Of a stretch of 64,000 nucleotides of DNA, positions 33,423-52,899 are shown one piece after another. The stretch comes from Paenibacillus kribbensis. GTDB taxonomy: Bacteria > Bacillota > Bacilli > Paenibacillales > Paenibacillaceae. The position numbers were made by a program, and so were the translations under genes. The DNA lies in the NCBI RefSeq assembly GCF_002240415.1, contig NZ_CP020028.1, positions 1,699,501-1,763,500 of the forward strand, written 5' to 3'. How positions within the stretch are numbered: position 1 is the stretch's first letter; every line of letters starts with the position of its first letter. Below the pieces are notes generated by a model, which saw only the letters and a program-made list of their open reading frames with translations, ran no database searches and was not told the origin of the DNA.

Positions 33423-33444
33423 GTTCATAAATAAGACATTATAC
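33423..33444 (+). repeat. cassette site 0, right-half remnant
   Basis: TTCATAAATA then ATTATAC in place of the usual TTCATGAATA and GTTATAC. It marks the start of cassette 1; the following bases match the start of cassette 15 (CAGAATCAA). Confidence 0.6.
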
Positions 33445-33485
33445 AACAGAATCAAAAATAATAGAAAAGAGGATCATATGATCCT

Positions 33486-33773
33486 CTAGATGTTAGAATT
33501 TTTCAATTCACTAAAGAGTTGTAAAGCGTCTTTGAAGCCTTGTATGTAGATACTTCTTTCTAGGATGGATTGGAGAGAAATTTGGGCGTCTTCATAAAGA
33601 AAAACTGTATGTTGAAGTTGATCGGGTAGTGCTTCACGAAGCGTTCTAAAGTATTGATCTGTTTCCGAAGAAAGTTGATTGTACTCTGTATGATACTCCG
33701 AAAGCTCAGTGTAGAGTAATTCTAAACGTATTCTTATAAGTGGCTCTACTAATGATTCTAATGCATTGTCCAT
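33486..33773 (-). CDS. small protein of duplicated divergent cassette (copy 1)
   Basis: 95 residues, helical, no recognised domain (LIRIRLELLYTELSEYHTE, DALPDQLQ-like REALPDQLQHTV). The same gene with about 85 percent identity stands at 47365-47652. It is one of only three minus-strand genes in the array and is divergent from a small HTH regulator; three TAACTCTATAGAGTTA-like sites lie between them. An additional toxin/antitoxin or self-regulated role is possible but not shown. Confidence 0.65.
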   Translation of the reverse strand: MDNALESLVEPLIRIRLELLYTELSEYHTEYNQLSSETDQYFRTLREALPDQLQHTVFLYEDAQISLQSILERSIYIQGFKDALQLFSELKNSNI

Positions 33774-33792
33774 ATGTTATTCCTTCTTTGGT

Positions 33793-33862
33793 TAACTCTA
33801 TAGAGTTATTATATAACCCTACGAAGTTAATTGCAAGGTGGATATTTGACTTTATAGAGTTA
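33793..33862. promoter_or_regulatory. triple operator-like repeats (copy 1)
   Basis: Palindrome TAACTCTATAGAGTTA at 33793-33808, a diverged copy TAACCCTACGAAGTTA at 33814-33829, and GACTTTATAGAGTTA ending at 33862. They lie between two divergent genes, one encoding an HTH protein, so they are probable binding sites of that protein. Confidence 0.6.
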
Positions 33863-33926
33863 AAACTTCGCTTTTCGTTGATGATTGCTGGTATGAGAGA
33901 TAAGATAGAATTATGGAGGGAAAAAG

Positions 33927-34151
33927 ATGACCGTAATTAAGTGCAATATAAGAGAACTCATGGCAGAACATCGAATAGATGATATAACAGAATTGATGGC
34001 GAAATCCGGGTTAAGTCGGAATTCAATCAATAAACTGTACAGGGAAACGAATATAGAAACAACAAAGCTTGAAACCTTATTCAAGCTATGTGATACATTT
34101 AACTGCAAATTATCTGATTTGATTGAATATATACCAGAAGAAAATAAATAG
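33927..34151 (+). CDS. small XRE-type HTH regulator (copy 1)
   Basis: 74 residues, a bare Cro/CI-type helix-turn-helix: ITELMAKSGLSRNSINKLY, then TTKLETLFKLCDTFNCKLSDLIEY. Related to the short YozG-like regulators of Bacillota. GGAGGG precedes ATG 33927. Nearly identical to the copy at 47806-48030. It belongs to cassette 1 and probably controls its own divergent promoter region. Confidence 0.85.
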   Translation: MTVIKCNIRELMAEHRIDDITELMAKSGLSRNSINKLYRETNIETTKLETLFKLCDTFNCKLSDLIEYIPEENK

Positions 34152-34177
34152 TGAGCGCCGTTTCGAGAAGCAATTCA

Positions 34178-34271
34178 GTCGTTTAACATCATATTCATTG
34201 GAGTCTTGGTCTGCGGGAAAGATTTCAGAAAGGTATTCGGCAGACAACCCCTGGTGAAGTTCGTTATTAAG
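34178..34271 (+). repeat. cassette site 1, degenerate
   Basis: Left arm GTCGTTTAAC and CATATTCA, the GTCTGC/GCAGAC hairpin, then GTTATTA; the right inner arm is deleted. Left arm pairs with the start of cassette 1 at most positions. Confidence 0.7.
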
Positions 34272-34325
34272 AAATTATTATTAGGAAATTTATGTGAATA
34301 AATATAATAACTATGGAGGCTTAAC

Positions 34326-34931: not shown

Positions 34932-34950
34932 AGATGACATGAGCATTTCA

Positions 34951-35100
34951 TTACAACGTATCTACACTGCGTACTACGCCCTTGGTTTGCAAGATGAGGT
35001 AGGTAGTGAAGCGGAATCAGCTTACTACCCTATGAAGCTAAGTCCGTCGGCCCTGGTCCACCTTAAGCTTCTCAGATTCGTAGATACAAGAACGTTTTAG
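34951..35100 (+). repeat. cassette site 2
   Basis: Inner arms GTATCTAC and GTAGATAC: different bases from other sites but still complementary to each other. Right core AACGTTTTAG. Confidence 0.75.
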
Positions 35101-35132
35101 AAAAATCAGTCTAATGCTAAGGAGAAACATTT

Positions 35133-35993
35133 ATGAAGAAAAGTCCAATGGCCATTATCTCAAGTCTACATAATGATTCCAAGCAAATAATTAGTAATTA
35201 TTTGAAACTTTATTCTGAAAGCTCTTATAAACAATACCTTTCTTCAATAGCTGATATATTTTCTTCCACTCAGAAGGAAAATGTACGGGATCTTACATTT
35301 AATGACTATTTACCGATTTATCAAAAATATATTAACGACGAACAGAAAACAGCCCAAGATTCATACAAAGAATCCTTCTTTAAATATTTATATGCAAATG
35401 ATCTGATAGTGCCTGATGGATTTAATGGAATTTGGTTGAAAGATGACTTGATAAGGCATTTTCTAAAGAAGATGAGTGATTCGGAAGGTTCTTCTAAAAA
35501 TGAAAAATTATCTCATAATAATAGCCTGTCTTTAAGTGAAGTTCTAACAATTGATAAATTATTAGATCAAGAGTTCACTAAATTCGATACTCTTCGAATG
35601 GCATTTGTATGGTATTTGCTATTTGAAACAGATTGTTCTGTTAGAGAAATACTAATGCTCACTAGTGAGCACTACAGAGATGGGGAAATAGTCACTTATA
35701 AAAATAAGAGGTATATAGTTCCAGATAGATGCAAAAATGTATTTGAATATCTTTCTGAAAAGCAATATAACGGTTTTAAAAACCTAAACAGTATAGTTTC
35801 GAAGCTTGGTACACTTGCCGGAATATCGGATCTAAAGCCAATGAGGATAAAAAATGCTAGGAAAGTGAATATGATAAAGTGTGGTGGCTGTAATCGGAAT
35901 ATTACAAATATATCCACTAATTGGAGTTCAGTTAATAATCGTATTGTTTGTGTTCAATGTGCTGACTCACTAAAAAAAACTATAATAATATAG
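35133..35993 (+). CDS. tyrosine-recombinase-like protein with zinc-finger tail, cassette 3
   Basis: 286 residues. Residues about 15-110 look like the SAM-like core-binding domain of integrases; 140-180 (MAFVWYLLFETDCSVREILML) resembles the start of the catalytic domain, where active enzymes have TGLRxSEL. Only one Arg of the catalytic set can be placed; the His-x-x-Arg box and Tyr are not seen. The tail has two CxxC pairs (CGGC, CVQC), probably a zinc ribbon. It may bind DNA without catalysis. AAGGAG precedes ATG 35133. The stop overlaps the next gene by one base. Confidence 0.5.
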   Translation: MKKSPMAIISSLHNDSKQIISNYLKLYSESSYKQYLSSIADIFSSTQKENVRDLTFNDYLPIYQKYINDEQKTAQDSYKESFFKYLYANDLIVPDGFNGIWLKDDLIRHFLKKMSDSEGSSKNEKLSHNNSLSLSEVLTIDKLLDQEFTKFDTLRMAFVWYLLFETDCSVREILMLTSEHYRDGEIVTYKNKRYIVPDRCKNVFEYLSEKQYNGFKNLNSIVSKLGTLAGISDLKPMRIKNARKVNMIKCGGCNRNITNISTNWSSVNNRIVCVQCADSLKKTIII

Positions 35994-36532
35994 TGGAAGA
36001 AGCCATAGAAAAGAATGAAATTGAATTGGTTAGTGAAAAAAGTCTTCGTGCCTCATCAGTGATGTTCACTTTTGATGAATTAAGAAGTAAAGTAACTTGT
36101 GTTATAGATTATTTAAAACTACATGAATTCCAAATGCAGATAGGAAAACTTGGAGAAGCATACGTATTTGAACAAGAGCTCGAGAAACTTGAAGGAACAC
36201 CTTATTTCACTTTAGTCGATGATAGTAAAGCTGCTGACCCGAAAAATGGGTATGATATTCTTTCATATGATGTTGACGGGAACGTAATCTTCATAGAAGT
36301 TAAGACAACAATAAAAGAGGGTAGTGATTTTTATATATCACAACACGAAGTAAATACGGCTAGAGAATGTCAAGCTATGGGAGGTAAATATTTACTTTAT
36401 AGAGTGGGCAATATATTAGGGGAGAAGCAGCATATAACTTTAGAAACTATAGATAACATTCTAGATACTGCTCTCTATGAGTTGGAGCCCTATAACTATA
36501 AAGTAAGAAAGAGAAATAATATTGAGTGCTAG
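35993..36532 (+). CDS. DUF3883 / Mrr-like nuclease-fold protein, cassette 3
   Basis: 179 residues. GTG start overlaps the previous stop by one base, so translation is coupled. Core motif IGKLGEAYVFEQELEKLEG, DPKNGYDILSYD, and VIFIEVKTTI (the D...ExK of PD-(D/E)XK folds), then FYISQHEVNTARECQ, typical of DUF3883. Such domains are often parts of restriction or defence proteins. Pairing with a recombinase-like DNA-binding partner suggests a two-gene defence cassette (inferred). Confidence 0.7.
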   Translation: MEEAIEKNEIELVSEKSLRASSVMFTFDELRSKVTCVIDYLKLHEFQMQIGKLGEAYVFEQELEKLEGTPYFTLVDDSKAADPKNGYDILSYDVDGNVIFIEVKTTIKEGSDFYISQHEVNTARECQAMGGKYLLYRVGNILGEKQHITLETIDNILDTALYELEPYNYKVRKRNNIEC

Positions 36533-36549
36533 TTCGAAGACGCGATTCC

Positions 36550-36671
36550 GTCGTATAAGATAATATTCAAGCTTCGGCTCCGTTGAAGCCTTGGTCTGCG
36601 AGAAGGATTTCAGGGAAGCATTTCAGCAGACAACCCCTGTCGGGGTTCATGAATACAGAAACGTTAGGTGA
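36550..36671 (+). repeat. cassette site 3 (long form)
   Basis: GTCGTATAAG left arm, TATTCAAG, hairpins GTCTGC/GCAGAC and AACCCC/GGGGTT, ATGAATAC, right core GTTAGGTG. Confidence 0.85.
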
Positions 36672-36714
36672 AATCGTCGAAAGATTAAAGACATAAAAAC
36701 TTTAGGGGGATTGT

Positions 36715-37470
36715 ATGAGTAATATTATTTTTATTTCTAAGTCAATATTTGATTGGGATTATTACTCTGATGGTGGAAAGGTGCTATCAAGTGATGCTTG
36801 GACGCGATCTTATAAGATATGGGAACATTCAAAAACATTAATTGATAAGGCGATAACTGAATTTGAATTAGCAGATGGTATTGCTAATCTTAAGAGAGCA
36901 TTGAATCACAGATTGAAGTTAATAGAGAGTTATTATAATTTTAGGAACATGGATGCTTCGTGGAAAAACAAAGGGTATCTAGAAATACTCGAATCTTTTG
37001 AATTGGTTAGACCCTATTTAATGAAAAACTTACTCTCAATTCGGAATGATATAGAACATAATGATGCTAAACCGCCAGGGAAAGAAAGATGTAATGAATT
37101 TATTGATATTGTATGGTATTTCCTGAAATCTACCGATCCGATAGTACAAATTCTAAAGTATTCAAATGCCCATACTCTCTATGATGAAGATGGTTATGAA
37201 ACACAGTATGGATTTAGCTACAGAGTAGACTTTAGTGATTTAAGTTCAATTAATTTCACTGGTTGGTTTTATAATGAGATTATCTCTAATGAACCTAGGG
37301 AGGGACTCCTTACTATAGAGTTTAGCGATATTCATAATAAGAAAAAATGGAAAGAAAACAATTTTCATAATGATAAGCTAGAGTCAGATAAATGGATACA
37401 TGGAGAAATTGTAGATTTAGATATTCAAACCAAAAAAATGATTGTCTCGAAGGTTTTATCTGCAATATAA
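36715..37470 (+). CDS. HEPN-like protein, cassette 4
   Basis: 251 residues. The N-terminal 130 residues are helical and contain LLSIRNDIEHNDA, the R-N-x-x-x-H motif of HEPN RNases and nucleotidyl-transfer partners. The C-terminal half is beta-rich with no known motif. HEPN domains are common in toxin and antiphage proteins, where Arg and His act on RNA. GGGGGG precedes ATG 36715. No antitoxin partner is in the cassette. The assignment rests on the motif and helical context. Confidence 0.5.
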   Translation: MSNIIFISKSIFDWDYYSDGGKVLSSDAWTRSYKIWEHSKTLIDKAITEFELADGIANLKRALNHRLKLIESYYNFRNMDASWKNKGYLEILESFELVRPYLMKNLLSIRNDIEHNDAKPPGKERCNEFIDIVWYFLKSTDPIVQILKYSNAHTLYDEDGYETQYGFSYRVDFSDLSSINFTGWFYNEIISNEPREGLLTIEFSDIHNKKKWKENNFHNDKLESDKWIHGEIVDLDIQTKKMIVSKVLSAI

Positions 37471-37516
37471 AATAATGAATGTAAAAAATGTGTGTATTTC
37501 AAGATGTCGACGACAA

Positions 37517-37665
37517 CACCTAACAAAGTATTCACGCATCCGGCCATCCGGGCCTCAGTCCTGTAGAGGGATTTCGGGGAAGCTGGAGCAGCTGGATACA
37601 TCAATCCCCCTAAGATAAGAGCTATATAAGGGGGATCGACGTCGTGAATACAAGAACGTTATAAG
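37517..37665 (+). repeat. cassette site 4 (with extra hairpin)
   Basis: Left arm CACCTAAC equals the complement of cassette 4 start (GTTAGGTG); pairing resumes beyond a 3-base gap (TCGTCGA). Carries the CTAAGATAAGAGCTAT hairpin also found in sites 16 and 18. Right core GTTATAAG. Confidence 0.9.
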
Positions 37666-37709
37666 AAATTGACGCAGACAGAAATTTAAAGAGTTTATGG
37701 GGGCTTTAC

Positions 37710-38726: not shown

Positions 38727-38746
38727 CTCGAAGAAGACGCCAACAT

Positions 38747-38844
38747 CTTATAACATAATATTCACGCTGCGGGCATACGCCCTGGGTCCGGCATGCGCCG
38801 GACGCCCAACATTCGTTGGGTCGTGAATACAGGAACGTTAGTTG
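38747..38844 (+). repeat. cassette site 5 (short form)
   Basis: Left arm CTTATAAC matches cassette 5 start GTTATAAG. Short form with three hairpins (GGGC/GCCC, TCCGGC/GCCGGA, CCAAC/GTTGG). Right core GTTAGTTG. Confidence 0.9.
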
Positions 38845-38887
38845 AAACCAATGCAATTGTATTAAAACAAAATAGGAAGTGAAGATA

Positions 38888-39340: not shown

Positions 39341-39365
39341 AAGTAACTCAGGGAGGCATCGGCAT

Positions 39366-39489
39366 CATCTAACATGATATTCAAGCTGCGTCTCCTTCGG
39401 AGCCTTGGTCTGCGGGATGGATTTCGGGTAAGCATTTCAGCAGACACATCCGACTATGTCGGACGTCGTGAATACGGGAACGTTAGGCG
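39366..39489 (+). repeat. cassette site 6 (long form)
   Basis: Left arm CATCTAAC, one mismatch to cassette 6 start GTTAGTTG, then CC-ATGC pairing further out. The right core GTTAGGC is identical to the core of many classical integron attC sites. Confidence 0.9.
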
Positions 39490-39514
39490 AAATTGTCACA
39501 AAGGAGTTAAAACA

Positions 39515-40394
39515 TATGTATAAGCATATCGATACAGCACAAGAGAATCTTGAAAATTATTTAGAAACAATACCCAATAAACAATCGAAGTTATTTTATC
39601 AAACAAGAATTAAGAAATTCTTTAATGAGTATATGTCTCAGAAACATAACATACTACGACCTCTTAATACAATTAACTTCCACGATTTGAACACATATAT
39701 AGATCAATTAGAAAGTTCGGATGCGGAAAAGTTGAATTATTTTAGAGCTTTCAATGGTTTTTTCAGATACATGTATTTATCAGACAATTTACAGAGCGAT
39801 GTTATGAAAGGAGTAAATAAGCCTGTTCTTCAATCTAAATTGCTAGACTATATTAGTCGGGTTGAATTAATACAAATTCAGAGATTTATTAAAGATTCAA
39901 ATGAAAAAATAGAAGATAGGCTTTTGCTCGGTTTGCTGTTATATACAGGTTTAAGTAGAAAGTATGTAGCTAATTTAACGCATTACCAATTTAGTTTTGG
40001 AAACGAGTATGTATCATTGTTTTTTGAATTTGGTGAAAGTACAATAAATATCCCGTTAAAAAGTACAGTTGTAAACCTTGTCAGAGATTATTTTAATTCG
40101 CAACAAACCATTAATCCTTTCGAGAAAATATTTAAAATTGATGAAAACTATGTGAGTGAAAAAGTAAAAATATTAAATAAGAAAATAACAGGAAAGCCAC
40201 TTACACCTACTGTCTACTCGAATAGCTTTATTAAAGAAGCACTGAGACAAGGCAACGATGTCCTTACGGTTAGCCAACTTACTTTAGAATCAGTTCATAC
40301 AATCATGAAACATGTTGATGTAGAAGAATATAGAATTAGTAAACAACAACATATACTTGAAAATATATTCGAGGATGACGACAAAATCACTTAA
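39515..40394 (+). CDS. tyrosine-recombinase-like protein, cassette 7
   Basis: About 292 residues. SAM-like core-binding N-terminus (FYQTRIKKFFNEYMSQKH, YFRAFNGFFRYMYL), then a catalytic-domain start LLLGLLLYTGLSRKYVANLT, where the box I Arg is displaced by one residue from TGLRxSEL. The later region VYSNSFIKEALRQGND...HTIMKHVDVEEYRISKQQH parallels the HxxR, LGH and Tyr boxes, but the His/Arg pair is lost while a Tyr is present. I place the start at ATG 39515 after AAGGAG; the frame itself is open back into site 6. It is probably a non-catalytic relative or an unusual recombinase. Confidence 0.55.
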
Positions 40395-40511
40395 CATAAT
40401 ATTCACGCATCAGGCATACGCCCTCGGTCCGGCATTGAAGGATTTCGGAGAAGTAGAAACAGCCGGACACCTCGGCATTCGCCGAGGTCGTGAATACAGG
40501 AACGTTATCAG
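40388..40511 (+). repeat. cassette site 7
   Basis: Left arm CACTTAAC overlaps the end of the previous gene; TTGTC pairing to the cassette 7 start lies beyond a 2-base gap. Right core GTTATCAG. Confidence 0.85.
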
Positions 40512-40561
40512 AAATCAGTGCTAAGTGTTAGCCAAGAAGATATTCAATGGGAGGATCTACA

Positions 40562-40984
40562 ATGAAGATTGATTTTGCGATTGAATCAGATTATGAGTAT
40601 ATCTTGTTAATAGACAAACACATACATAAGACACTTATAAGACCAAAAATAAAAGAAAATGAAATTCTAATAATTAGAGAATCCAATCAAGAAATAGGTT
40701 TGATGAGATACGGATTTTTTTGGGACAACAGACCATTTATGAATATGATATGGATAGATGAGGAGTATAGAGGAACAGGTATTGGTAAAAAAGTTGTCCA
40801 CTATTGGGAAGAATTGATGAAACAAAAAGGATTTGAAATGGTTATGACCTCAACACTTTCAAATGAAGGAGCTCAACATTTTTATAGAAAGCTTGGATAT
40901 AGAGATGCTGGATGTTTAATGCTTGAGAATGAACCACTGGAAATAATACTGACAAAGGAGTTAACAAAAATTGATGTTGAGTAA
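40562..40984 (+). CDS. GNAT family N-acetyltransferase, cassette 8
   Basis: About 140 residues, complete single-domain GNAT. Motif A MIWIDEEYRGTGIGKKVVHYW (R-G-x-G-x-G/A), then TSTLSNEGAQHFYRKLGYRDAG, the conserved F-Y-x-K-x-G-Y end. Closest in pattern to small amino-group acetylases; substrate unknown. GGGAGG precedes ATG 40562, and this rules against ATG 40547, which overlaps that site. GNATs are frequent cargo in integron cassettes. Confidence 0.85.
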   Translation: MKIDFAIESDYEYILLIDKHIHKTLIRPKIKENEILIIRESNQEIGLMRYGFFWDNRPFMNMIWIDEEYRGTGIGKKVVHYWEELMKQKGFEMVMTSTLSNEGAQHFYRKLGYRDAGCLMLENEPLEIILTKELTKIDVE

Positions 40985-41004
40985 ATCAAGGAAGGTACTG
41001 ACAT

Positions 41005-41122
41005 CTGATAACATAATATTCAAGCTGCGGCTCTTTTTGGAGCCTAGGTCTGCGGGATGATTTCGGAGGAGCGATTCAGCAGACAACCCCTTTGGGGTTC
41101 ATGAATACAGAAACGTTAGGTG
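41005..41122 (+). repeat. cassette site 8 (long form)
   Basis: Left arm CTGATAAC is the exact complement of cassette 8 start GTTATCAG, with TCAGT pairing further out. Right core GTTAGGTG. Confidence 0.92.
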
Positions 41123-41170
41123 AAATTAATTACTTAATTTTATTTCTAATCAAAGGAGTATGATTAGACA

Positions 41171-42159: not shown

Positions 42160-42180
42160 TGCGAAGGACGTAATTAGCCC

Positions 42181-42281
42181 CACCTAACATAATATTCACA
42201 CTGCGGACATTCGTCCTTGGTCCGGCGATAGCCGTACACATCCGACTGCGTCGGACGTCGTGAATACAGGAACGTTATAGG
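42181..42281 (+). repeat. cassette site 9 (short form)
   Basis: Left arm CACCTAAC exactly complements cassette 9 start GTTAGGTG, with TAATTAC pairing further out. Right core GTTATAGG. Confidence 0.92.
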
Positions 42282-42316
42282 AAATAGCTAAAAATCTTAT
42301 ATAAAGGAATATGTGA

Positions 42317-42742: not shown

Positions 42743-42770
42743 TTAAGTAAACGCATCATGTAGTGGCTAC

Positions 42771-42893
42771 TTCCTATAACATAATATTCAAGCAGCGGCT
42801 CCGCTGGAGCCTTGGTCTGCGGTATGGAATTCGGGGAGGCATTTCAGCAGACAACCTCTGGCGAGGTTCATGAATACAAGAACGTTATACGAC
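42771..42893 (+). repeat. cassette site 10 (long form)
   Basis: Left arm TTCCTATAAC complements cassette 10 start GTTATAGGAA over 10 bases. Hairpins GGCTCC/GGAGCC, GTCTGC/GCAGAC, AACCTC/GAGGTT. Right core GTTATACGAC. Confidence 0.93.
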
Positions 42894-42922
42894 AGAACAA
42901 ATAAATAAGGAGAAGGATATTT

Positions 42923-44701
42923 ATGAGCTATATTAGAATAAAAAGCATTAGTGTTGAAAACTATAGATCATTTGGAACAAGACAGACAATACATTTTCCT
43001 GATCAGAATCATAAGAAACCTGTAGCTATCGTTGGGTATAACAATTCAGGGAAAACAAATTTTCTCAACGCAATTCTATATGGGATAAAAGAGAAAAATG
43101 TTAATAAGGATACATTCACAATTAACGATTTTCACAACCGTGATTACAATAATCGTCCTTTTATTGAAACTGAAATTGAAAGCAGTATAGAAGTTAAAGG
43201 AGACGGAAACCAAGCAGAGCTTAAAGGATTTCATTCATTAAGAATAAGCGTAGTGGATAATGAAATTGAGCACGCTGGAGTCCGATCTTTTCGTGACAAG
43301 GAACAATTAACAAAAAATCCTGATGCTTCGGGAGCAGCAAAGTATTTTAGGATTTTCTATGTGAATTTTCATGATGTAAAAAAAGAGTTATCAACTAAGA
43401 AGACTACCTGGGGAAATCTTACTTCGTTTTTAGCGAAACATATTAAGAAAATTGTTGAAGCAGATGCGAACATGAAAGGGAAAAGGAAAACTTTTGAAGG
43501 AGAAGTGAAGGATTCAACTGATAGGGTTCTAGCAGATTCGAAGTTACACAGTTTTCTTGAGGATATAAGGTCAAATTATTCAACAAACCTAAGAGACAGT
43601 AATTTTTTTATAGGTTTTGAATTGCCTGATTATGAAGATATTTTTTTGGATATGATTTTTAAAATCGGTTTAAATGGTGATACCGAAAACCTTATTTCTA
43701 TAGATCATTTCGGTGATGGATATATTTCTATGTTTGTTATGGCTATCATTCAAGCAATTGCTGAGAGCAACAAGAGTGATAAATGTTTATTTTTATTTGA
43801 AGAGCCTGAAAGTTTCTTGCATGAAAATCATCAAGAGTACTTTTACAAAACTGTCCTCTGTAACTTGGCAGAAAAAGGGCATCAAGTTATCTATAGTACT
43901 CACTCGGACAAAATGATAGATGCTTTTGATACACGAGGACTTATTCGTTTTGAATTTGATGATGAAGCACACGAAACAATTTTGAAATATAACAAACCAG
44001 ATGAGAATATTTCAGAAGCTGATCTAGAAGGTTTCTCTTTGGATCAAGTAGCAGATTTTAATAATTACATTAAAATGATAGAGCCAAATTTGAATAAAAT
44101 TGTGTTCAGTCAAAAGGTGGTTTTAGTAGAGGGGCCAAATGATTTACTGACCTACAAAGAAATTATAAAGAAAAAGGTATATCTGTTAACTAAAGATTCT
44201 ATGTATTCAGAGACATATTTAAACTTTAAAAATATTTCTATAATTCCTCATCATGGTAAGATTACAGCCAGAATCTTGGTTAAGTTATGTAAACATCTTG
44301 GAGTGGACTTTTTTTGTATAAATGATTTTGACTTCAAAAACAATTTCATTTCAGAACTTTTATTTGATTCACTTGAAGATTTAAAGAAAAGTGAATTATA
44401 CACAAAAAGGATATTGGATTTAGAAGAATTTAATTCTAAAGGCAAACCTCTAAGTGACAGTACAAAACGACAAATGGTTACTACAAATTGGGGATTAATT
44501 AAAGAAGCTTCTTTGGAAAAAATACATTTCAACATTCCTAAGTTAGAAGCTGTGATAGGTTACGAATCAAATGATAAAAGCAGTTTAGGCATATGGACTA
44601 AACTCCAAGAAACATCAGAATTCGGAGAAGAAATTTTTCCAACATCTCTAAAGAAATTCGTTGGAATTGAAACTTTAGAACAAGCATGTTCCAAACAATA
44701 A
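42923..44701 (+). CDS. OLD-like ATPase/TOPRIM nuclease, cassette 11
   Basis: 592 residues. Walker A GYNNSGKT at 38-45 in an SMC/RecF-type ATPase head, Walker B FLFEEPESFLHEN near 290, then QVIYSTHSDKMIDAF, and a C-terminal TOPRIM start VVLVEGPNDLLTYKEI near 400 with a likely acidic partner CINDFDFKNN. This is the layout of the OLD family, which includes antiphage nucleases such as GajA (Gabija) and AriA-type proteins. No GajB-like helicase follows, so it may act alone. It is the largest gene in the array; GGAGAAGG precedes ATG 42923. Confidence 0.85.
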   Translation: MSYIRIKSISVENYRSFGTRQTIHFPDQNHKKPVAIVGYNNSGKTNFLNAILYGIKEKNVNKDTFTINDFHNRDYNNRPFIETEIESSIEVKGDGNQAELKGFHSLRISVVDNEIEHAGVRSFRDKEQLTKNPDASGAAKYFRIFYVNFHDVKKELSTKKTTWGNLTSFLAKHIKKIVEADANMKGKRKTFEGEVKDSTDRVLADSKLHSFLEDIRSNYSTNLRDSNFFIGFELPDYEDIFLDMIFKIGLNGDTENLISIDHFGDGYISMFVMAIIQAIAESNKSDKCLFLFEEPESFLHENHQEYFYKTVLCNLAEKGHQVIYSTHSDKMIDAFDTRGLIRFEFDDEAHETILKYNKPDENISEADLEGFSLDQVADFNNYIKMIEPNLNKIVFSQKVVLVEGPNDLLTYKEIIKKKVYLLTKDSMYSETYLNFKNISIIPHHGKITARILVKLCKHLGVDFFCINDFDFKNNFISELLFDSLEDLKKSELYTKRILDLEEFNSKGKPLSDSTKRQMVTTNWGLIKEASLEKIHFNIPKLEAVIGYESNDKSSLGIWTKLQETSEFGEEIFPTSLKKFVGIETLEQACSKQ

Positions 44702-44739
44702 TCGAATCAAATACTTCATGTAAATTCAAGTAATGTTCC

Positions 44740-44840
44740 GTCGTATAACATAATATTCACGCTGCGAGCATTCGCTCTTGGTCCGGCATTCGCCGGACAC
44801 ACAGCGTGCGCTGGGTCGTGAATACGGGAACGTTATGTGA
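44740..44840 (+). repeat. cassette site 11 (short form)
   Basis: Left arm GTTCCGTCGTATAAC pairs with cassette 11 start GTTATACGACAGAAC at 14 of 15 positions. Hairpins GAGC/GCTC, TCCGGC/GCCGGA, CAGCG/CGCTG. Right core GTTATGTGA. Confidence 0.95.
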
Positions 44841-44864
44841 AATCCCAGTGGAAGGAGAATAAAA

Positions 44865-45380: not shown

Positions 45381-45399
45381 TTTTGAGAGGGCATGGACA

Positions 45400-45527
45400 T
45401 CACATAACATAATATAATATTCATGCTGCTTCTCCTGCCGGAGCTTTGGTCTGCTTGATGGATTTCGGAGAGGAATTTCAGCAGACAACCCCTGACGGGG
45501 TTCATGAATACAGAAATGTTATGCGAA
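45400..45527 (+). repeat. cassette site 12 (long form)
   Basis: Left arm TCACATAAC complements cassette 12 start GTTATGTGA. The AT-rich spacer is extended by a short duplication. Right core GTTATGCGAA after AAAT rather than AAAC. Confidence 0.92.
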
Positions 45528-45564
45528 AGAACTACAAAAAATAATAAAGGCAGGTATTACATAC

Positions 45565-46515
45565 ATGATCAATATCTTTATTTCTTATTCTAATATAGAT
45601 AGAGAATTAGCCAGTGCATTTATAAATAAATTAAGAGATTTTGATATTCGAGTATCTGTAGATGTTTTGGATTTGAAAATCGGAGATGATTGGCAGACGG
45701 TTTTGAATAATGGGCTTAGGAATTCTGATGCAGTAGTAATATTGATTACAAAAAATTCAATTAGAAGCGATAATGTTATGTCAGAATTACACGCTTCCCT
45801 AGCTTACATGAAAGAACGAGGAAAACCCAAGATTCTTCCTATCATCTTTGATGATGTTCCAATCCCCGATCCATTAAAACATATCTTAGCATTAAGGGCT
45901 GATCGAGATAATCTGGATTTAACGATGTATAAAATAAAAGATTCTATTGCAGGAATAACAGGCGAATTAATAGCAAAAGCTGATGAAAAGAAAGAGTCGA
46001 GTGCTAAAGTAGAATCATCTGCCGAACAATATATTCATGATTCACTAAACACATTAGAGAAAAAGGAGAGAAAGTATAATTTAATTGCATATGGTTGTTA
46101 TATAGTATCTTGTTTCAGTTTGATAGGATGTATAATTTTGGCTCTTGCACGAGGAAATACTTTGTTAAAATTTTATGTAGATACCACGGTGTATAAATAT
46201 ATTGAATTTTCTTTGCTGAATATTTTGACTATTAGTTTAATTATTGCATTGGCTAGATTGTCATTTATTTTAGGGAAATCGTTTATGGTAGAAGCATTAA
46301 GAAATGCTGATCGAATTCATGCAATATCTTTTGGAAAATTTTATTTGAAAGCATATGGTGAAAAAGCCGAATGGAATGAAATAAAAGAGGCGTTTCAACA
46401 TTGGAATATTGATAATGGCTCTTCGTTTATTTCTCAGTCAACTAAAGACTTTGATCCAGAATTGATCCAAAATTTAATTGAATTTACAAAAGCAATAAAA
46501 GGAAATGAAAAGTAA
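45565..46515 (+). CDS. TIR-domain protein with two membrane helices, cassette 13
   Basis: 316 residues. TIR domain at 1-130: FISYSNIDRELA at the start, the likely catalytic Glu74 in DNVMSELHASL, and PIIFDDVPIP. Bacterial TIR domains often degrade NAD or make cyclic ADP-ribose signals during phage infection. After a charged linker, two membrane helices follow at about 173-195 and 213-236, then a cytoplasmic tail. A membrane-tethered TIR effector fits an abortive-defence role (inferred). The ribosome binding site before ATG 45565 is weak. Single-gene cassette. Confidence 0.85.
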   Translation: MINIFISYSNIDRELASAFINKLRDFDIRVSVDVLDLKIGDDWQTVLNNGLRNSDAVVILITKNSIRSDNVMSELHASLAYMKERGKPKILPIIFDDVPIPDPLKHILALRADRDNLDLTMYKIKDSIAGITGELIAKADEKKESSAKVESSAEQYIHDSLNTLEKKERKYNLIAYGCYIVSCFSLIGCIILALARGNTLLKFYVDTTVYKYIEFSLLNILTISLIIALARLSFILGKSFMVEALRNADRIHAISFGKFYLKAYGEKAEWNEIKEAFQHWNIDNGSSFISQSTKDFDPELIQNLIEFTKAIKGNEK

Positions 46516-46543
46516 CAACAGATAATTCTAAGAAGAAAGTTCC

Positions 46544-46646
46544 TTCGCATAACAATATATTCACGTTGCGGACTTTCGTCCTGGGTCCGGCATTCGCCGA
46601 ACACCTCAGCGTGCGCTGAGGTCGTGAATACAGGAACGTTATACGC
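46544..46646 (+). repeat. cassette site 13 (short form)
   Basis: AAGTTCCTTCGCATAAC pairs with cassette 13 start GTTATGCGAAAGAACT at nearly all positions. Right core GTTATACGC. Confidence 0.95.
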
Positions 46647-46689
46647 AATTACCTAGATAGAATCATTGAGAGTACCTCTAGCTAGGGAG

Positions 46690-47175: not shown

Positions 47176-47197
47176 CTATTCGAAGAAGTCAGGTACA

Positions 47198-47325
47198 GCG
47201 TATAACATCATATTCAAGCAGCGGCTCCTAACGGAGCCTTGGTCTGCGGGATGGATTTGGAAGATGATTTTCAGCAGACATATCCGACATTGTCGGATGT
47301 CTTAAATACAGGAACGTTATACGAC
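47198..47325 (+). repeat. cassette site 14 (long form)
   Basis: Left arm GCGTATAAC exactly complements cassette 14 start GTTATACGC. Right core GTTATACGAC; the right inner arm is changed to CTTAAATA. Confidence 0.92.
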
Positions 47326-47364
47326 AGAATCAAGAACAATAGAAAAAGAGGGTCATATGACCCT

Positions 47365-47652
47365 CTAAATACTAGAATTTTGCAATTCACTTAATAGTTG
47401 TAGAGCATCTTTGAAACCTTGTATGTAGATACTTCTTTCTAGGATGGATTGGAGAGAAATTTGGGCGTCTTCGTAAAGAAAAACCGTATGTTGAAGTTGA
47501 TCGGGCAAAGCATCACGAAGCGTTTTAAAATATTGATCTGTCTCCGAAGAAAGCTGAGTGTACTCCTTATGACACTCCAGAAGCTCAGTATAGAGTAATT
47601 CTAAACGTATTCTTATAAGCGGCTCTGTTAATGATTCTAATGTATTAATCAT
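47365..47652 (-). CDS. small protein of duplicated divergent cassette (copy 2)
   Basis: 95 residues, about 85 percent identical to the product at 33486-33773, including the ends DALPDQLQHTVFLYEDAQIS and IYIQGFKDALQLL. It is transcribed divergently from the HTH gene that follows. The cassette around it is a second copy of cassette 1, separated by thirteen unrelated cassettes. Function unknown. Confidence 0.65.
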   Translation of the reverse strand: MINTLESLTEPLIRIRLELLYTELLECHKEYTQLSSETDQYFKTLRDALPDQLQHTVFLYEDAQISLQSILERSIYIQGFKDALQLLSELQNSSI

Positions 47653-47671
47653 ATGTTATTCCTCCTCTAAT

Positions 47672-47741
47672 TAACTCTATAGAGTTATTATATAACCTTA
47701 TAAAGTTAATTGCAAGGTGAATATTTGACTTTATAGAGTTA
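47672..47741. promoter_or_regulatory. triple operator-like repeats (copy 2)
   Basis: TAACTCTATAGAGTTA at 47672-47687, TAACCTTATAAAGTTA at 47693-47708 and TGACTTTATAGAGTTA at 47726-47741, with the same spacing as in copy 1. Confidence 0.65.
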
Positions 47742-47805
47742 AAACTTCGCTTTTCGTTTATGATTGCTGCTATGGGAGATAAGATAGAATTATGGAGGGG
47801 AAAAA

Positions 47806-48030
47806 ATGAACGTAATCAAGTGCAATATACGAGAACTCATGGCAGAACATCGAATAGATGATATAACAGAATTGATGGCGAAATCGGGCTTAAGTCGGAA
47901 TTCAATCAACAAGTTGTATAGGGAAACGAATATAGAAACAACAAAGCTGGAAACTTTATTCAAGCTATGCGATACATTTAACTGCAAATTATCAGATTTA
48001 ATTGAGTATGTACCCGAAGAAAACCAGTAG
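47806..48030 (+). CDS. small XRE-type HTH regulator (copy 2)
   Basis: 74 residues, nearly identical to the product at 33927-34151 (differences are mostly at the ends, for example MNVIK for MTVIK). Helix-turn-helix LMAKSGLSRNSINKLY. GGAGGGG precedes ATG 47806. It should recognise the same repeats as copy 1, so the two cassettes may cross-regulate. Confidence 0.85.
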   Translation: MNVIKCNIRELMAEHRIDDITELMAKSGLSRNSINKLYRETNIETTKLETLFKLCDTFNCKLSDLIEYVPEENQ

Positions 48031-48045
48031 TGAAGAAGCGATTCC

Positions 48046-48167
48046 GTCATATAACATAATATTCAAGCAGCGGCTCCTTTGGTGCCTTGGTCTGCGGGAA
48101 GGATTTCGAAGAGGCATTTCAGCAGACACCCCCTTCGGGGTTCGTGAATACAGAAAAGTTATAGGAA
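48046..48167 (+). repeat. cassette site 15 (long form)
   Basis: GATTCCGTCATATAAC pairs with cassette 15 start GTTATACGACAGAATC at 14 of 16 positions. Right core GTTATAGGAA after AAAA. Confidence 0.93.
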
Positions 48168-48275: not shown

Positions 48276-48369
48276 TCTATCTCTTTTTCCATTTTGGAGA
48301 ACATATTCTCTCAAAATTGAGGTTTTTTACAGGTCTATCATTCAAGTGCTGAAAATTGCAAATATGGTA

Positions 48370-48795: not shown

Positions 48796-49100
48796 AAAAT
48801 ATCAACTCCTCTTGTTTGATATCTCCATGATATGTTGGACACAAAGATAATGATTGGACAATTATGTAAGATGTTTTGATTTGAATCAAATACATTATGA
48901 ACAATGGCAAAGAGCAAATTACAGGTGGTGGTGAATAATTGTAAGGGGTCGTACAAGAAATCCTAACCTACGACGTATTTCATAACTGTAATGTTACTAA
49001 ATAATTATTATCCACCAGGAGCGCCTCAGCAGACATAGAATGATGTTAACGGGAAACGATAGTTAAAAAATGATTTTGTATTTCGAATAAGGTGCTGACA
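48796..49100. other. noncoding part of cassette 16
   Basis: AT-rich stretch upstream of the inverted gene; it should contain its promoter. No frame with start and ribosome binding site and no repeat was found until site 16 begins. Confidence 0.4.
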
Positions 49101-49251
49101 TCCTATAACATAATATTCGCGCTGTGGCCGTTGGCCCCTTGATCTGCCAGAAGTTTTTTCGAAGAAGAAGAGCCAGGCAGATACATCCATTCCCCTAAGA
49201 TAGGAACTATCAAAGGGGAATGGACGTCGCGAATACGACAACGTTAGACGA
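49101..49251 (+). repeat. cassette site 16 (with extra hairpin)
   Basis: Left arm TCCTATAAC exactly complements cassette 16 start GTTATAGGA, with TCAGC pairing further out. Inner arms TATTCGCG/CGCGAATA co-vary. Contains CTAAGATAGGAACTAT. Right core GTTAGACGA. Confidence 0.92.
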
Positions 49252-49304
49252 AACCTGTGCAAGGAAAAAAATAAAAAAATAAAAAGACAATGGAGGTATG
49301 TTTG

Positions 49305-49754
49305 GTGCAGACATTAGAAAAAGCTAGAAAAAATGATGCACAAAAACTTGCTGAAATACAAAAGGCCAGTTTTGAGGATGAATCAAAGCATTTTAATAAT
49401 AACGAAGCCGTTGGGCCAATAGGATATGATTCCATAAGTTAGCAAGAAGAGATGATGCAAAATTGCGAATATTTCAAGGTACTCTTTAATGGAGAAATAA
49501 TAGGGGGAGCTATGATATTTGTAGAATGCAATCAAGTGCATAATCTAGGAAGAATCTTTATTGATCCAAATTTTAAAAATCAAGGAATCGGAACGAAGGT
49601 GATGGAGAAAATTGAAAATAAATTTCCAGACAGCACTGAATGGTGGCTGGATACTCCTAACTGGAGTGTCAAGAATCATCACTTCTATTCAAAGTGTGGG
49701 TTTACTAAAGTTAGAGAAGAAGGTGACTTATACATTTTTGAAAAGACTTTATAA
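49305..49754 (+). pseudogene. GNAT acetyltransferase, cassette 17, with amber stop
   Basis: GTG 49305 follows GGAGG at 8 bases. The frame reads VQTLEKARKNDAQKLAEIQ and on to GPIGYDSIS, then TAG at 49440-49442, then in the same frame QEEMMQNCEYFKVLFNGEIIGG and the acetyl-CoA loop IDPNFKNQGIGTKVME, closing with FYSKCGFTKV. A single TGG to TAG change explains it. ATG 49452 lies after the stop, so a shorter protein missing the first strands could still be made. Confidence 0.75.
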
Positions 49755-49792
49755 ACTTATTTTTTGTGCCTTAATCAGGGAGGACACAATTA

Positions 49793-49912
49793 TCGTATAA
49801 CACAATATTCAAGCAGTGGCTCCTTACGGAGTCTTGGTCTGCTGGAAGGATCACGGGGAGGCATTCGGCAGACAACCCCTCCGGGGTTCATGAATACAGA
49901 AACGTTATATGA
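49793..49912 (+). repeat. cassette site 17 (long form)
   Basis: Left arm TCGTATAAC, one mismatch to cassette 17 start GTTAGACGA. Hairpins GTCTGC/GCAGAC and AACCCC/GGGGTT. Right core GTTATATGA. Confidence 0.88.
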
Positions 49913-50033
49913 AATCGGCGGATAATAAAAAGGGGGTTCAAATACAAAAGATATATTGCGAACGCACGACTATAAGTATGATAAAATCAAAATAGAAAGA
50001 AGGAATAGGACGAAATTGTAGGAGGTAGAACGA

Positions 50034-50291
50034 ATGAAATGGCAAGAAGTAAGAGAATTATTCCCTGACCAATTTGTTCTGGTTTCCATACTTAATTATC
50101 ATGAGGAAGGCAACAAAAAAATAGTAGATGAAGTTGCACCGATTCGCACAATATCAGAAGAAGATGCTAATAAAGAGTTTTTTCAAGCAAAGCCTGGGAA
50201 TTTAGTGTACCATACTTCAAATCAAGATTTTGTGATTCATCTTCGCAGGGATCCATTAATGAGAGTGAGACGTAATAGTGATGAGAATTAA
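50034..50291 (+). CDS. small protein coupled to protease, cassette 18
   Basis: 85 residues, soluble (WQEVRELFPDQFVLVSIL, then EEDANKEFFQAKPGNLVYHT). No confirmed family; such small proteins precede retropepsin-like genes in other bacteria, where they are often annotated as hypothetical. TAGGAGG precedes ATG 50034. It overlaps the next gene by 11 bases, so the two are coupled. Confidence 0.6.
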   Translation: MKWQEVRELFPDQFVLVSILNYHEEGNKKIVDEVAPIRTISEEDANKEFFQAKPGNLVYHTSNQDFVIHLRRDPLMRVRRNSDEN

Positions 50292-50652
50292 CTATGACGG
50301 ACAATTAATTATGACGTCACTTACTGTAACATTCAGAGGAAGAGATTTGAGAATAGATGATGTAATTATAGATACAGGATCTTCCCATACTATAATTAGT
50401 CCTGATATCTTAGAGAATATCGGTGTGACTTACGAAACAGGGGATTCAATATATGAAGCATATGGGATCGGCGGAAGCATTCCATTCTACACAAAGATTA
50501 TGGACAGGATTGAAATAGGTACAAGCAGCATTGAAAATATAGAAATAGATGTAGGCATACTGCCTAAAGATCATAAAGGGCTACTTGGACTGGATATTCT
50601 GAAACAACAAAATTTTATTATTGACTTGAAAACATTAGAATTACGTATATGA
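50281..50652 (+). CDS. retropepsin-like aspartic protease, cassette 18
   Basis: About 123 residues, one retroviral-type aspartic protease domain: catalytic VIIDTGSSHTIIS, flap region near AYGIGGSIPFYTK, and the closing LLGLDILKQQNFIIDL. Single-domain enzymes act as dimers. ATG 50281 overlaps the upstream gene. The pair with the small upstream protein suggests a substrate, inhibitor or toxin-antitoxin-like arrangement; this is inference. Confidence 0.8.
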   Translation: MRINYDGQLIMTSLTVTFRGRDLRIDDVIIDTGSSHTIISPDILENIGVTYETGDSIYEAYGIGGSIPFYTKIMDRIEIGTSSIENIEIDVGILPKDHKGLLGLDILKQQNFIIDLKTLELRI

Positions 50653-50698
50653 CTTTTGAGAAAGAATAAAGTTAGTAAAATCGAAGATGTCGTCGAAA

Positions 50699-50847
50699 TC
50701 ATATAGCAATGCAACTATGCTGTGGGGTATTGGCCCCTTGGTTATCAGGTGTCACGCACAGAAGCATATTCAGACAACACAGGACCCGACCTAAGATAAG
50801 AGCTATCTAAGGTCGGGTTCTGTCATAGATATAGAAACGTTATCTAT
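50699..50847 (+). repeat. cassette site 18 (with extra hairpin)
   Basis: Left arm TCATATAGC, one mismatch to cassette 18 start GTTATATGA. Inner arms CTATG/CATAG differ from the usual sequence but still pair. Contains CTAAGATAAGAGCTATCTAA. Right core GTTATCTA. Confidence 0.85.
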
Positions 50848-50893
50848 AATCAAGGTAATGAATGTAACCTAGCAATTCAGGGGAGGAGTTTCT

Positions 50894-51331
50894 TTGAATC
50901 GAAATCAAGCATTTAGAATAATTGGTAAATACTTTGAATCATGGATTAAGAAAGACATTGAAATGTTTGGTAAGGTTGTACATGATGCAGCTATTATAAA
51001 GGAATGTACCGGTGCAGTCATGGAAGGAAAAAATGAATTAGTAAACTGGTTCACTCAATGGAATAACAGTGATAATAAGGTTGATTGCTGGGAAATCAAA
51101 GAAATAGGATTTGATGAAGCAAGTGAAGCAGCGTTTGTTGAATGGAGATTCAAGTGTTTATACGATGCTCAAGAATATGAATGGGATGGGGCTAGTATAG
51201 TATATTTCAAAGATTCTTTAATAATTGAACTGAATGAGTATAAAATGAAGCAAAATAAGTTTTTTCCTTACAGAAGCGTAAAAAACAAAGAAAGCGCAAG
51301 GGAATACAGGGACGGACTTGACAGCAGATAA
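50894..51331 (+). CDS. NTF2/SnoaL-like protein, cassette 19
   Basis: 145 residues, cone-like NTF2 fold pattern: NQAFRIIGKYFESWIKKDIEMF, HDAAIIKECTGAVMEGKNEL, VNWFTQWN, and AAFVEWRFKCLYDAQEYEWDG. Small-molecule enzymes or scaffolds use this fold; no clear active site is seen. TTG 50894 follows GGGGAGGAG. The stop codon overlaps the left arm of site 19. Confidence 0.7.
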   Translation: MNRNQAFRIIGKYFESWIKKDIEMFGKVVHDAAIIKECTGAVMEGKNELVNWFTQWNNSDNKVDCWEIKEIGFDEASEAAFVEWRFKCLYDAQEYEWDGASIVYFKDSLIIELNEYKMKQNKFFPYRSVKNKESAREYRDGLDSR

Positions 51332-51493
51332 CAAAGTAAGTATTCTCACTGCTGGCCTGACTGTCCTTGGTCTGCCCGAGGCATTTCGAGAAGCGAAATC
51401 AGGCAAACAACCCTGTAAGGCTAAGTGGCGGAGCCATCCGCCGTTCGTGTGGCTTAACCCTCTCAGGTTCGTGAATACAGAAAGGTTATTTTC
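51325..51493 (+). repeat. cassette site 19 (longest form)
   Basis: Left arm CAGATAAC, one mismatch to cassette 19 start GTTATCTA, with TCAAG pairing further out. Inner hairpin region is enlarged (TTCGTGAATA on the right). Right core GTTATTTTC. Confidence 0.85.
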
Positions 51494-51533
51494 AATTGCC
51501 AAAGCCTAAAAGGTATAATAGGGGGAACGTATC

Positions 51534-52058
51534 TTGACCACAACTTTCACTAAGATAACTGGAGTTGGTTTTATTATTTTATCAGTTTTAAGACTAACCC
51601 CTTTTATGAATGCTACTGGAAAATGGTTGTTATATATCTCAATCGCAGCATTCTTTCTTATACTATATGACTTACTGGAATTTATTGTTGAAGGCATATG
51701 GATAAAGAAAGGAGTAAAGCTAAGTAAATTTCTATTCAGCCTACGTTCTATATTTCTTGGGTGTGCTGTGATGGCTATAATCGTTTTGCCCAATTTAAAG
51801 ATCAATATATCTGTCAAAGAAGTTAATACATTTAGCGATGCATTTACATTAATTAGCTTAGGCATAGCGATAACACTAATTGGGTTTAAGACCGAAAGAG
51901 TACAAACCATTTTATATAATAGGAGAAAGACAATAAATAATGAAGTCAGAGAATTTCTCAATTCAATTGAAGGGCGAAGCATGATTAATGAACACATAGA
52001 AAAACTAAGAATAGAAAATACACACCAGATTAATAAATTAGATGCTGATTCTAAGTAG
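51534..52058 (+). CDS. membrane protein, cassette 20
   Basis: 174 residues with about four hydrophobic segments (GVGFIILSVLRLTPF, WLLYISIAAFFLILYDLLEF, IFLGCAVMAIIVLPN, AFTLISLGIAITLIGF), then a charged cytoplasmic tail. TTG 51534 after GGGGGAA is the likely start. No family recognised. Confidence 0.6.
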   Translation: MTTTFTKITGVGFIILSVLRLTPFMNATGKWLLYISIAAFFLILYDLLEFIVEGIWIKKGVKLSKFLFSLRSIFLGCAVMAIIVLPNLKINISVKEVNTFSDAFTLISLGIAITLIGFKTERVQTILYNRRKTINNEVREFLNSIEGRSMINEHIEKLRIENTHQINKLDADSK

Positions 52059-52066
52059 TAGCAACA

Positions 52067-52185
52067 GCAGATAACGTAATATTCAAGCTGCGGCTCCTAA
52101 CGGAGCCTTGGTCTGCGAGATGCATTTCAGTGAGGTATTTCAGGAGACAACCCTACAGGTTCGTGAATACAGAAACGTTAATTGA
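52067..52185 (+). repeat. cassette site 20 (long form)
   Basis: Left arm GCAGATAAC, imperfect to cassette 20 start GTTATTTTC, but TTGC pairs further out. Hairpin GGCTCC/GGAGCC intact; the GTCTGC partner is changed to GGAGAC. Right core GTTAATTGA. Confidence 0.85.
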
Positions 52186-52222
52186 AATCCTGCAAGATAA
52201 ACAAAAGTAAGGGGAATCAACA

Positions 52223-52819
52223 ATGTCTTACACTAGACCAGTAATAATTGAACCATATTATGATAAGCCCGAATGGATCACGAACGAGGTTACTCGAGAA
52301 GAAATTATCTTCCTATCTGCTGAATCAAGTGAGCAAGATGTTGAATTATTTTTAATTCTTCTATTTGGTTACAATCATATCAATATAGAACAATCATTTT
52401 GTTTGTCTTTCAATGAATTACTGAAGCAAGAAGAAGTCGTTATTTCAGGAGGAATCGCTTTCTTTGAAGATGAGAGTAAATATATATTACCAAGCTGTTG
52501 CTGTGGGTTAGAAGATTTCTCTAATGTTATTGATTCTATTTTAAATAAACAAAGTCCATGGATGGGACATGATCCTACCCCGGTTATTACATATATCGGT
52601 GATCAAGTATGTGTTTGGCAAGATGATCAAGAAACAATCGATAGTAATGTTAATTTCCACATACAATATTCACATAAAGAACTAATAGACAGTCTAAATA
52701 AAACACGAAAAGAAATACAGGGGTTTATTGAGGGCCCATTATATGAATGGATTAACAAGAGAGACAAAGAGATTGCTGGCACTATGAGAGATCGGATGAA
52801 ACAATGGATTATGAAATAA
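52223..52819 (+). CDS. hypothetical protein, cassette 21
   Basis: 198 residues, acidic, soluble. Central FNELLKQEEVVISGGIAFFE and LPSCCCGLEDFSNVIDSI suggest an alpha/beta fold; the C-terminal helix has KTRKEIQGFIEGPLYEW. No recognised family. AAGGGGA precedes ATG 52223. Last gene of the array. Confidence 0.6.
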   Translation: MSYTRPVIIEPYYDKPEWITNEVTREEIIFLSAESSEQDVELFLILLFGYNHINIEQSFCLSFNELLKQEEVVISGGIAFFEDESKYILPSCCCGLEDFSNVIDSILNKQSPWMGHDPTPVITYIGDQVCVWQDDQETIDSNVNFHIQYSHKELIDSLNKTRKEIQGFIEGPLYEWINKRDKEIAGTMRDRMKQWIMK

Positions 52820-52855
52820 GAAAGTTATGGAAGTATTTCGAAGAAGACGGGAACT

Positions 52856-52899
52856 TCAGTTAACATTGTATTTACACTGCGGGCTTTGCCCTTGGTAAG
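52856..52899 (+). repeat. cassette site 21, left half only
   Basis: TCAGTTAAC (one mismatch to cassette 21 start), TATTTACACTGCGGGC and CCTTGGT, after which the similarity ends. The right half is missing, so the array is cut here. Confidence 0.75.

Follow-up and report, generated by a model that had tools for sequence, protein, structure and literature searches.

What kind of element is the long row of short gene modules and related sites in the chromosome of Paenibacillus kribbensis, and does it belong with the integrons? The row lies in a 64,000-nt window (bases 1699501-1763500 of the one-contig 5.78-Mb genome; NCBI RefSeq assembly GCF_002240415.1, contig NZ_CP020028.1; positions below are those of the window), and an earlier note, made from the sequence alone, had proposed that it belongs to a lineage of its own and collects cassettes in the manner of an integron. 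This proposal is supported by the complementarity between the two ends of each cassette, by cassette boundaries at the site cores, by the linkage of the sites to a recombinase, and by the recombinase itself, which is of a non-IntI kind. The element is very probably a sedentary chromosomal integron-like system with a dedicated IntI-related recombinase, decayed at the recombinase in this strain.

Anatomy of the cassette array

The array spans positions 33438-52899, and we counted 21 cassettes in it (Table 1). The direct repeats, about 20 of which had been said to alternate with 21 modules, are real and share the layout AAC - 4 nt - TATTCACG - hairpins - CGTGAATA - 7 nt - GTTA, with covarying hairpins and a length of 85-170 nt. 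The AT-rich composition is equally borne out, with 32-40% GC inside the array against mostly 43-51% in the flanks. The description of the modules as running in one direction holds for the sites, all of which lie on the plus strand, and for most genes, but three cassettes hold minus-strand open reading frames (ORFs), two of them beside a plus-strand ORF (33486-33773 and 47365-47652) and one as the sole noteworthy ORF (48370-48795). The suggested match to the attC plan of integrons stands for the layout, the fold, and one exact GTTAGGC core (at 39482), but not for the cores in general, as only 4/16 R' cores in the window read GTTRRRY. Over all loci read, R' is GTTRRRY in 42/185 and R'' is RYYYAAC in 32/185 sites, and R' is mostly GTTATNN.

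The sites were searched for with a covariance model, R2, built from 41 of the 44 canonical-length sites (2 of the 41 come from the window; three sites of locus L036 were excluded). In the window, R2 finds 16 sites at E<=1e-7, all on the plus strand, from 36556 to 52181, and two weaker matches (51333-51489 and 34951-35098); three weak minus-strand matches are the same sites in reverse reading. Damaged or cut-off sites are recognizable by eye near 34177, 50697, and 52854. The Rfam search of 33000-53500 returned no relevant match and one sub-threshold chance match. Another covariance model, R1, made from 52 of 54 listed sites (without window:45410-45523 and L017:11210-11317), mixed two site classes, held 6 pairs, and was dropped.

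Same-cassette complementarity and folding of the sites

In an integron, the cassette circle is opened inside the site, so that the end of a cassette is expected to complement its own start and not that of the next cassette. We compared positions 5-10 behind the core with the cassette's own start for 19 cassettes of the window, and 86/114 cells match, with a permutation mean of 54.4 and none of 200,000 permutations as high; the same-site control gives 54/114 against 53.5 expected. Across 19 loci including the window, the 164 cassettes of 250-6,000 nt for which both site halves were found match in 694/820 cells, where 468 are expected (sd 10) and the highest of 5,000 shuffles gives 514. The same rule is followed in distant loci with different site sequences, some Clostridia among them, from Alkaliphilus, Acididesulfobacillus, Natronincola, a Clostridiales metagenome-assembled genome (MAG), P. 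glacialis, and Fusibacter, where 17 cassette pairs, hand-chosen from 6 loci with clear site series, match in 75/85 cells against 46.4, with two poorly fitting pairs of the five from Fusibacter retained. The complementarity reaches about position 17, giving an outer arm of about 16-17 nt, and contains a conserved mismatch at position 11, where A faces C in 135/164 cassettes and in 17/17 pairs of the distant loci. On the bottom strand the A.C mismatch becomes a G.T wobble, and it may therefore bias the choice of strand. In the attC sites of IntI integrons, by contrast, the outer arm is about 7 nt long.

When a cassette's own start is placed behind its site, the fold is more stable than the array form in 133/158 cases (mean fold energy -26.2 versus -21.8 kcal/mol); in 120/158, the bottom strand folds more stably than the top strand. 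The hairpins covary: 95% of cells pair in the 41 canonical sites versus 89.8% when shuffled, and two-sided changes occur in 15/25 pairs (7.6 shuffled) and in 78 cells (26.5 shuffled; 0/500). Further pair types are less telling (30 versus 27.5; 23/500), and pairing in slid controls is 30-40%.

These results bear on whether the sites could be dispersed mobile repeats inserted after many genes, like miniature inverted-repeat transposable elements (MITEs) or repetitive extragenic palindromes (REPs), which would suit their strong hairpins and common sequence. An inserted repeat predicts related flanks at one site, whereas the related sequences observed here are two cassette ends, about 0.6-2 kb apart. 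In the host genome, no copy lies outside the array, as 16/16 R2 matches at E<=0.001 and 17/17 matches of a whole-genome pattern scan (<=2 mismatches) fall within it, and in the named loci described below no match lies upstream of the recombinase. This confinement sets the sites apart from ordinary dispersed repeats, and we hold such an origin to be extremely unlikely, the least probable of the explanations weighed.

The recombinase, attI, and cassette turnover

The earlier note had likened the array to clusters of attC sites without an integrase. Contrary to that, the sequence directly upstream of the array holds the remnant of a broken tyrosine-recombinase gene (32344-33341) and, after it, an attI-like site. 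Pieces of the remnant match Phage_int_SAM_4 (2.4e-11) and Phage_integrase (1.5e-16), and one TAG lies within the catalytic part. Relatives have six intact orthologues of 371-379 aa, which share 88-92% identity across the N-terminal query and stand at the head of arrays, encoded in the direction of the array; other polymyxa-group copies are partial. The attI is a conserved stretch after the recombinase stop, ending ...AAGTTCGTAAATAAGAC^GTTA, beyond which a different module follows in every genome read. The attI-like core recurs in many named Paenibacillus/Saccharibacillus loci and is looser in some Clostridia; the automatic attI picks lack the core in several loci (such as L075, L078, L089, L101, and L109). 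Sites and recombinase are linked. In 80 named loci, which were chosen by the recombinase alone and some of which overlap the R2 training loci (at least L039, L065, L073, and L092), 258/258 R2 matches fall in the 461,673 bases downstream of the recombinase and none in the 721,209 bases upstream; the matches are spread over 48/80 loci, and 256 of them are on the recombinase strand.

Judged from its sequence, the recombinase is IntI-related but not a canonical IntI. Its closest relative by sequence and by fold is IntI4 (2a3v; predicted model with pLDDT 80 and pTM 0.49), yet IntI4 residues 183-239 align opposite only 15 residues of the Paenibacillus recombinase. The distance from GKG to HxLRH is 62-68 in the 78 readable loci of the 80, the IntI-specific insert is absent in 78/78, and the insert blocks of IntI1 and IntI2 are likewise absent. 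Also unlike the integrases of IntI integrons, the recombinase has an extra N-terminal part of ~100 aa, and it is encoded in the direction of the array; its first ~100 residues match no Pfam family. The integron-integrase model TIGR02249 gives 202.6 bits against a cut-off of 265, which is passed by 0/10 distant genomes or records, and the cut-off of the XerA model is narrowly missed (215.3 against 220). Several members bear the NCBI name 'site-specific tyrosine recombinase/integron integrase', which is also what the XerA model is called. A tree of 52 rows places 12 IntI in a clade of their own (100/100), without the Paenibacillus recombinase family, and separates this family plus the IntI (98/98) from eight further tyrosine recombinases encoded in the genome. 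The family falls weakly on one side of a branch (75/75), with a program warning of long branches, and its relation to the IntI clade is only that of a sister or neighbour. LexA/SOS boxes before the recombinase find no support (10/78 versus 11/76 control stretches); a single perfect LexA-box-like CGAACTAATGTTCG stands before the recombinase of L057, with no enrichment over the 78 loci.

The separate IntI clade, the missing insert, and the TIGR02249 scores all argue against an ordinary integron or cluster of attC sites lacking integron-integrases (CALIN) that came from Proteobacteria and was served by a canonical IntI, as does the presence of sites in 73/75 same-genus genomes. Such an origin would fit the grouping of the recombinase with IntI apart from the eight other tyrosine recombinases, a cargo typical of cassettes, and the few Firmicutes CALINs previously reported according to an excerpt of PMC9024848, and we rate it as very unlikely. 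As to the turnover of cassettes, a comparison of 199 cassettes from the window and its relatives gave 77 shared pairs. A first boundary comparison kept same-register pairs only; the recount gives 46 pairs of >=90% identity. In 37 of these, both partners start at the G of GTT, and the bases preceding the G drop to site-consensus likeness. P. brasilensis (L023) and Paenibacillus sp. BJ-4 (L018) share a 970-nt stretch of 99.8% identity that starts at GTT in both; it is attI-proximal in the former and internal in the latter. The genomes G010 and G011 share 97.6% identity along 12 kb, through attI, and then diverge, with eight other cassettes in G010 and two in G011 beyond attI, before the sequences rejoin exactly at a site. 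G010 also has a few cassettes upstream of attI (L136 4614-6690). Nine polymyxa-group genomes have the recombinase and the right-flank gene on one contig with 14-47 kb between them, the same locus with different content; in a tenth (G059), they are on different contigs. The expectation of the earlier note that strains would differ by whole modules is thus upheld in that whole cassettes or blocks differ with edges at cores, one exactly at attI, and falls short in one single-cassette difference and in the pairs that begin off-core.

Several observations weigh against an integron-like system run by its own recombinase. Among the 46 near-identical pairs, 9 lack a core start in both partners; in 4 of these, the match starts at the core or <=3 nt from it in one partner but within a longer interval in the second, and in 5 it starts 43-64 nt inside. 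The single-cassette difference, in G011, retained the site of the lost cassette, unlike a clean site-to-site excision. The recombinase is broken in the window and truncated in G010 and G011, where turnover is observed, a relative of it is found in only 46/75 genomes of the genus versus sites in 73, and it lacks the insert on which integron function reportedly depends. When all loci are pooled, complementarity within the same site also shows a small excess (544/925 versus 518, sd 10.6; ~2.5 sd). The decayed genes, the case of G011, and the shortfall of recombinase matches would suit a process in which homologous recombination between similar sites is the main source of change in cassette content, and the recombinase is a relic or serves another purpose. 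Homologous exchange, however, would not generate same-cassette complementarity, nor would it put different cassettes precisely after attI, whose sequence has little in common with the sites, and intact recombinase genes are retained in many relatives. We consider this route quite improbable.

The sequence features let us expect with high confidence that the system works like an integron. In intact relatives, the dedicated recombinase, encoded upstream of attI in the array direction, would recombine cassettes, each with a structured attC-like site at its end, and it probably carries out the reaction itself. In the cassette circle, the cassette's own start and end would pair into the outer arm of about 16-17 nt; further in would come an unequal spacer, then the inner arm (TATTCACG/CGTGAATA), and finally, in canonical sites, a set of three small hairpins. 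The substrate is likely a folded single strand, probably the bottom strand, and exchange would take place at or next to AC^GTTA. New cassettes would enter at attI, and cassettes may be expressed from near it.

Known systems, distribution, and cargo

The array shares with IntI chromosomal integrons (IntI4, classes 1-3) a tyrosine recombinase, an attI, cassettes that mostly carry a single gene and line up in one direction, folded sites with AAC/GTT cores, complementarity between the two ends of a cassette, the core as the probable place of exchange, and diverse cargo; it differs in its cores, mostly GTTATNN. As in integrons, an attI lies beside the recombinase gene; its core, ending ^GTTA, is conserved, and a block difference lies exactly there. 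XerC/XerD dif modules (pdif modules) also have genes between recombinase sites and an enzyme of the Xer type, but their dif sites are short and double-stranded and are served by the host XerC/D, whereas the array has long covarying hairpin sites and a linked recombinase separate from the Xer-like proteins of the genome. A CALIN is defined, in an excerpt of PMC9668308, by at least two attC <4 kb apart without an intact integrase. The window array is like a CALIN in having no intact recombinase beside it, and unlike one in having a recombinase remnant and an attI; its sites are scored here with R2. The same excerpt describes the IntI-specific domain as required by the standard tool and as defining, and by this test the array is not an IntI integron. 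On that description, the tool would pass over this recombinase, and the missing insert together with the sub-cut-off integrase score may explain misses by standard tools. The label that best suits the sequence evidence would be an insert-free, integron-like lineage of Bacillota.

Integrons are described as extremely rare in Firmicutes in an excerpt of PMC9024848, with a few CALINs and that of Limnochorda pilosa as the only complete integron, while part of PMC8618304 names Firmicutes among the phyla with integrons. The L. pilosa integron, set beside the array by description alone, likewise has a Bacillota host, but it was detected by a standard integron tool. Among the matches listed, titles and starts of abstracts in the open-access literature showed no paper on Paenibacillus integrons; subscription papers and preprints lay outside this search, and an earlier report in print is possible.

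R2 finds such sites across Paenibacillus, in 73/75 same-genus genomes, with five or more in 65; a strict pattern finds them in 61/75, with 0 control matches. R2 matches occur in at least 139/245 genomes of the family and in 16/19 genera, and outside the genus many genomes hold 1-3 matches. Of 149 genomes drawn from the phylum, 4 have matches, two of them same-genus and two, of other families, with single weak matches (L133, G323:C5; L134, G361:C131), one at a contig end. Plasmid records (the best 5,000) and 1,293 phage records gave no match of >=60% identity. Sites in 73/75 genomes of one genus would alter the picture of rare Firmicutes integrons. The system also points to an extensive and so far little-studied reservoir of cassette genes among Gram-positive soil bacteria. 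The purpose of the IntI insert and the origin of integrons from Xer-like recombinases become testable questions. We give even weight, for and against, to the broader view that a second, insert-free integron branch is common across Bacillota, in nearly every sampled Paenibacillus, some Clostridia, and perhaps Halanaerobiia and Treponema, that it may preserve the pre-insert state of IntI, and that the long outer arm with its A.C mismatch selects the strand as other attC features do.

The cargo in the window includes two GNATs, a TIR protein, an OLD/GajA-like protein, a NOV_C protein, a HEPN protein, and an aspartyl protease, besides some products that match nothing. Of 136 distinct cassette proteins of relatives, 120 were submitted, and they contain GNAT (7), APH (3), HNH (3), TIR_2 (2), and AadA_C (2) matches; the APH-family and AadA_C matches are a resemblance only. 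The longest ORF runs forward in 164 of the 199 cassettes and backward in 23, and 12 have none.

Table 1. Features of the array and its borders (window positions; R2 E-values where available)
Feature	Position	Strand	Remarks
IntI-related tyrosine recombinase, pseudogene	32344..33341	+	N-terminal ORF 32344-32952; internal stretch missing; two in-frame stops
attI-like site	33377..33441	+	junction AAGAC^ATTATAC; intact relatives AAGAC^GTTA
Cassette 1	33438..34267	+	DUF6809 ORF (minus), HTH_26 ORF (plus); duplicate of cassette at 47316
Damaged site	34177..34275	+	by eye
Diverged site	34944..35103	+	weak R2 match, E 0.03
Cassette	35094..36662	+	recombinase-like ORF 35133-35993; NOV_C ORF 35993-36532
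attC-like site	36549..36672	+	E 1.3e-10
attC-like site	37514..37667	+	E 9.8e-8
attC-like site, canonical three-hairpin form	38744..38846	+	E 3.1e-28; training site
attC-like site, GTTAGGC core	39363..39491	+	E 1e-8
attC-like site	40385..40513	+	E 5.4e-21
Cassette, GNAT acetyltransferase	40504..41114	+	
attC-like site	41002..41124	+	E 1.7e-11
attC-like site	42178..42283	+	E 9e-20
attC-like site	42770..42893	+	E 1.7e-11
Cassette, OLD/GajA-like ATPase-TOPRIM protein	42884..44831	+	
attC-like site, canonical three-hairpin form	44739..44841	+	E 2.2e-27; training site
attC-like site	45398..45527	+	E 4.8e-10
Cassette, TIR-domain protein	45518..46637	+	
attC-like site	46543..46647	+	E 6.9e-23
attC-like site	47196..47325	+	E 2.8e-10
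Cassette, second DUF6809 + HTH_26 copy	47316..48157	+	86.6% to cassette 1
attC-like site	48045..48167	+	E 3.9e-10
attC-like site	49099..49252	+	E 4.8e-10
attC-like site	49791..49913	+	E 3.7e-10
Diverged site	50697..50848	+	by eye; partial R2 match, E 1.4
Diverged site	51322..51494	+	weak R2 match, E 0.014
attC-like site	52065..52186	+	E 1.2e-8
Last cassette	52177..52899	+	by eye; ends in cut-off site 52854-52899
Sulfurtransferase-like gene, right flank (name by eye)	53196..54104	-	position beside array kept in relatives; gene present in 10/10 polymyxa-group genomes

The cassette with DUF6809 and HTH_26 genes occurs twice in the array (Table 1) and recurs in the arrays of several relatives. It is the sole kind of cassette in the array that pairs a minus-strand gene with a plus-strand gene, and it might stabilize the array. 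Two ORFs have the look of degenerate tyrosine recombinases: 35133-35993, by eye only, and 39456-40394, which has a partial Phage_integrase match of 20.4 bits, below the cut-off.

Outside the Bacillota, a Chryseobacterium plasmid (L119:13035-20861) carries a related recombinase followed by four repeats of ~282 nt, 2-3 kb apart, possibly a Bacteroidota counterpart; in the Chryseobacterium plasmid relatives, the same-cassette rule could not be demonstrated for the ~282-nt repeat behind the recombinase. Two Treponema MAG loci (L108 and L115), with very little sequence, show a GTTA(R)GC-like junction behind a recombinase relative. Many genomes (G001, G034, and others) hold two site clusters about 0.9 Mb apart.

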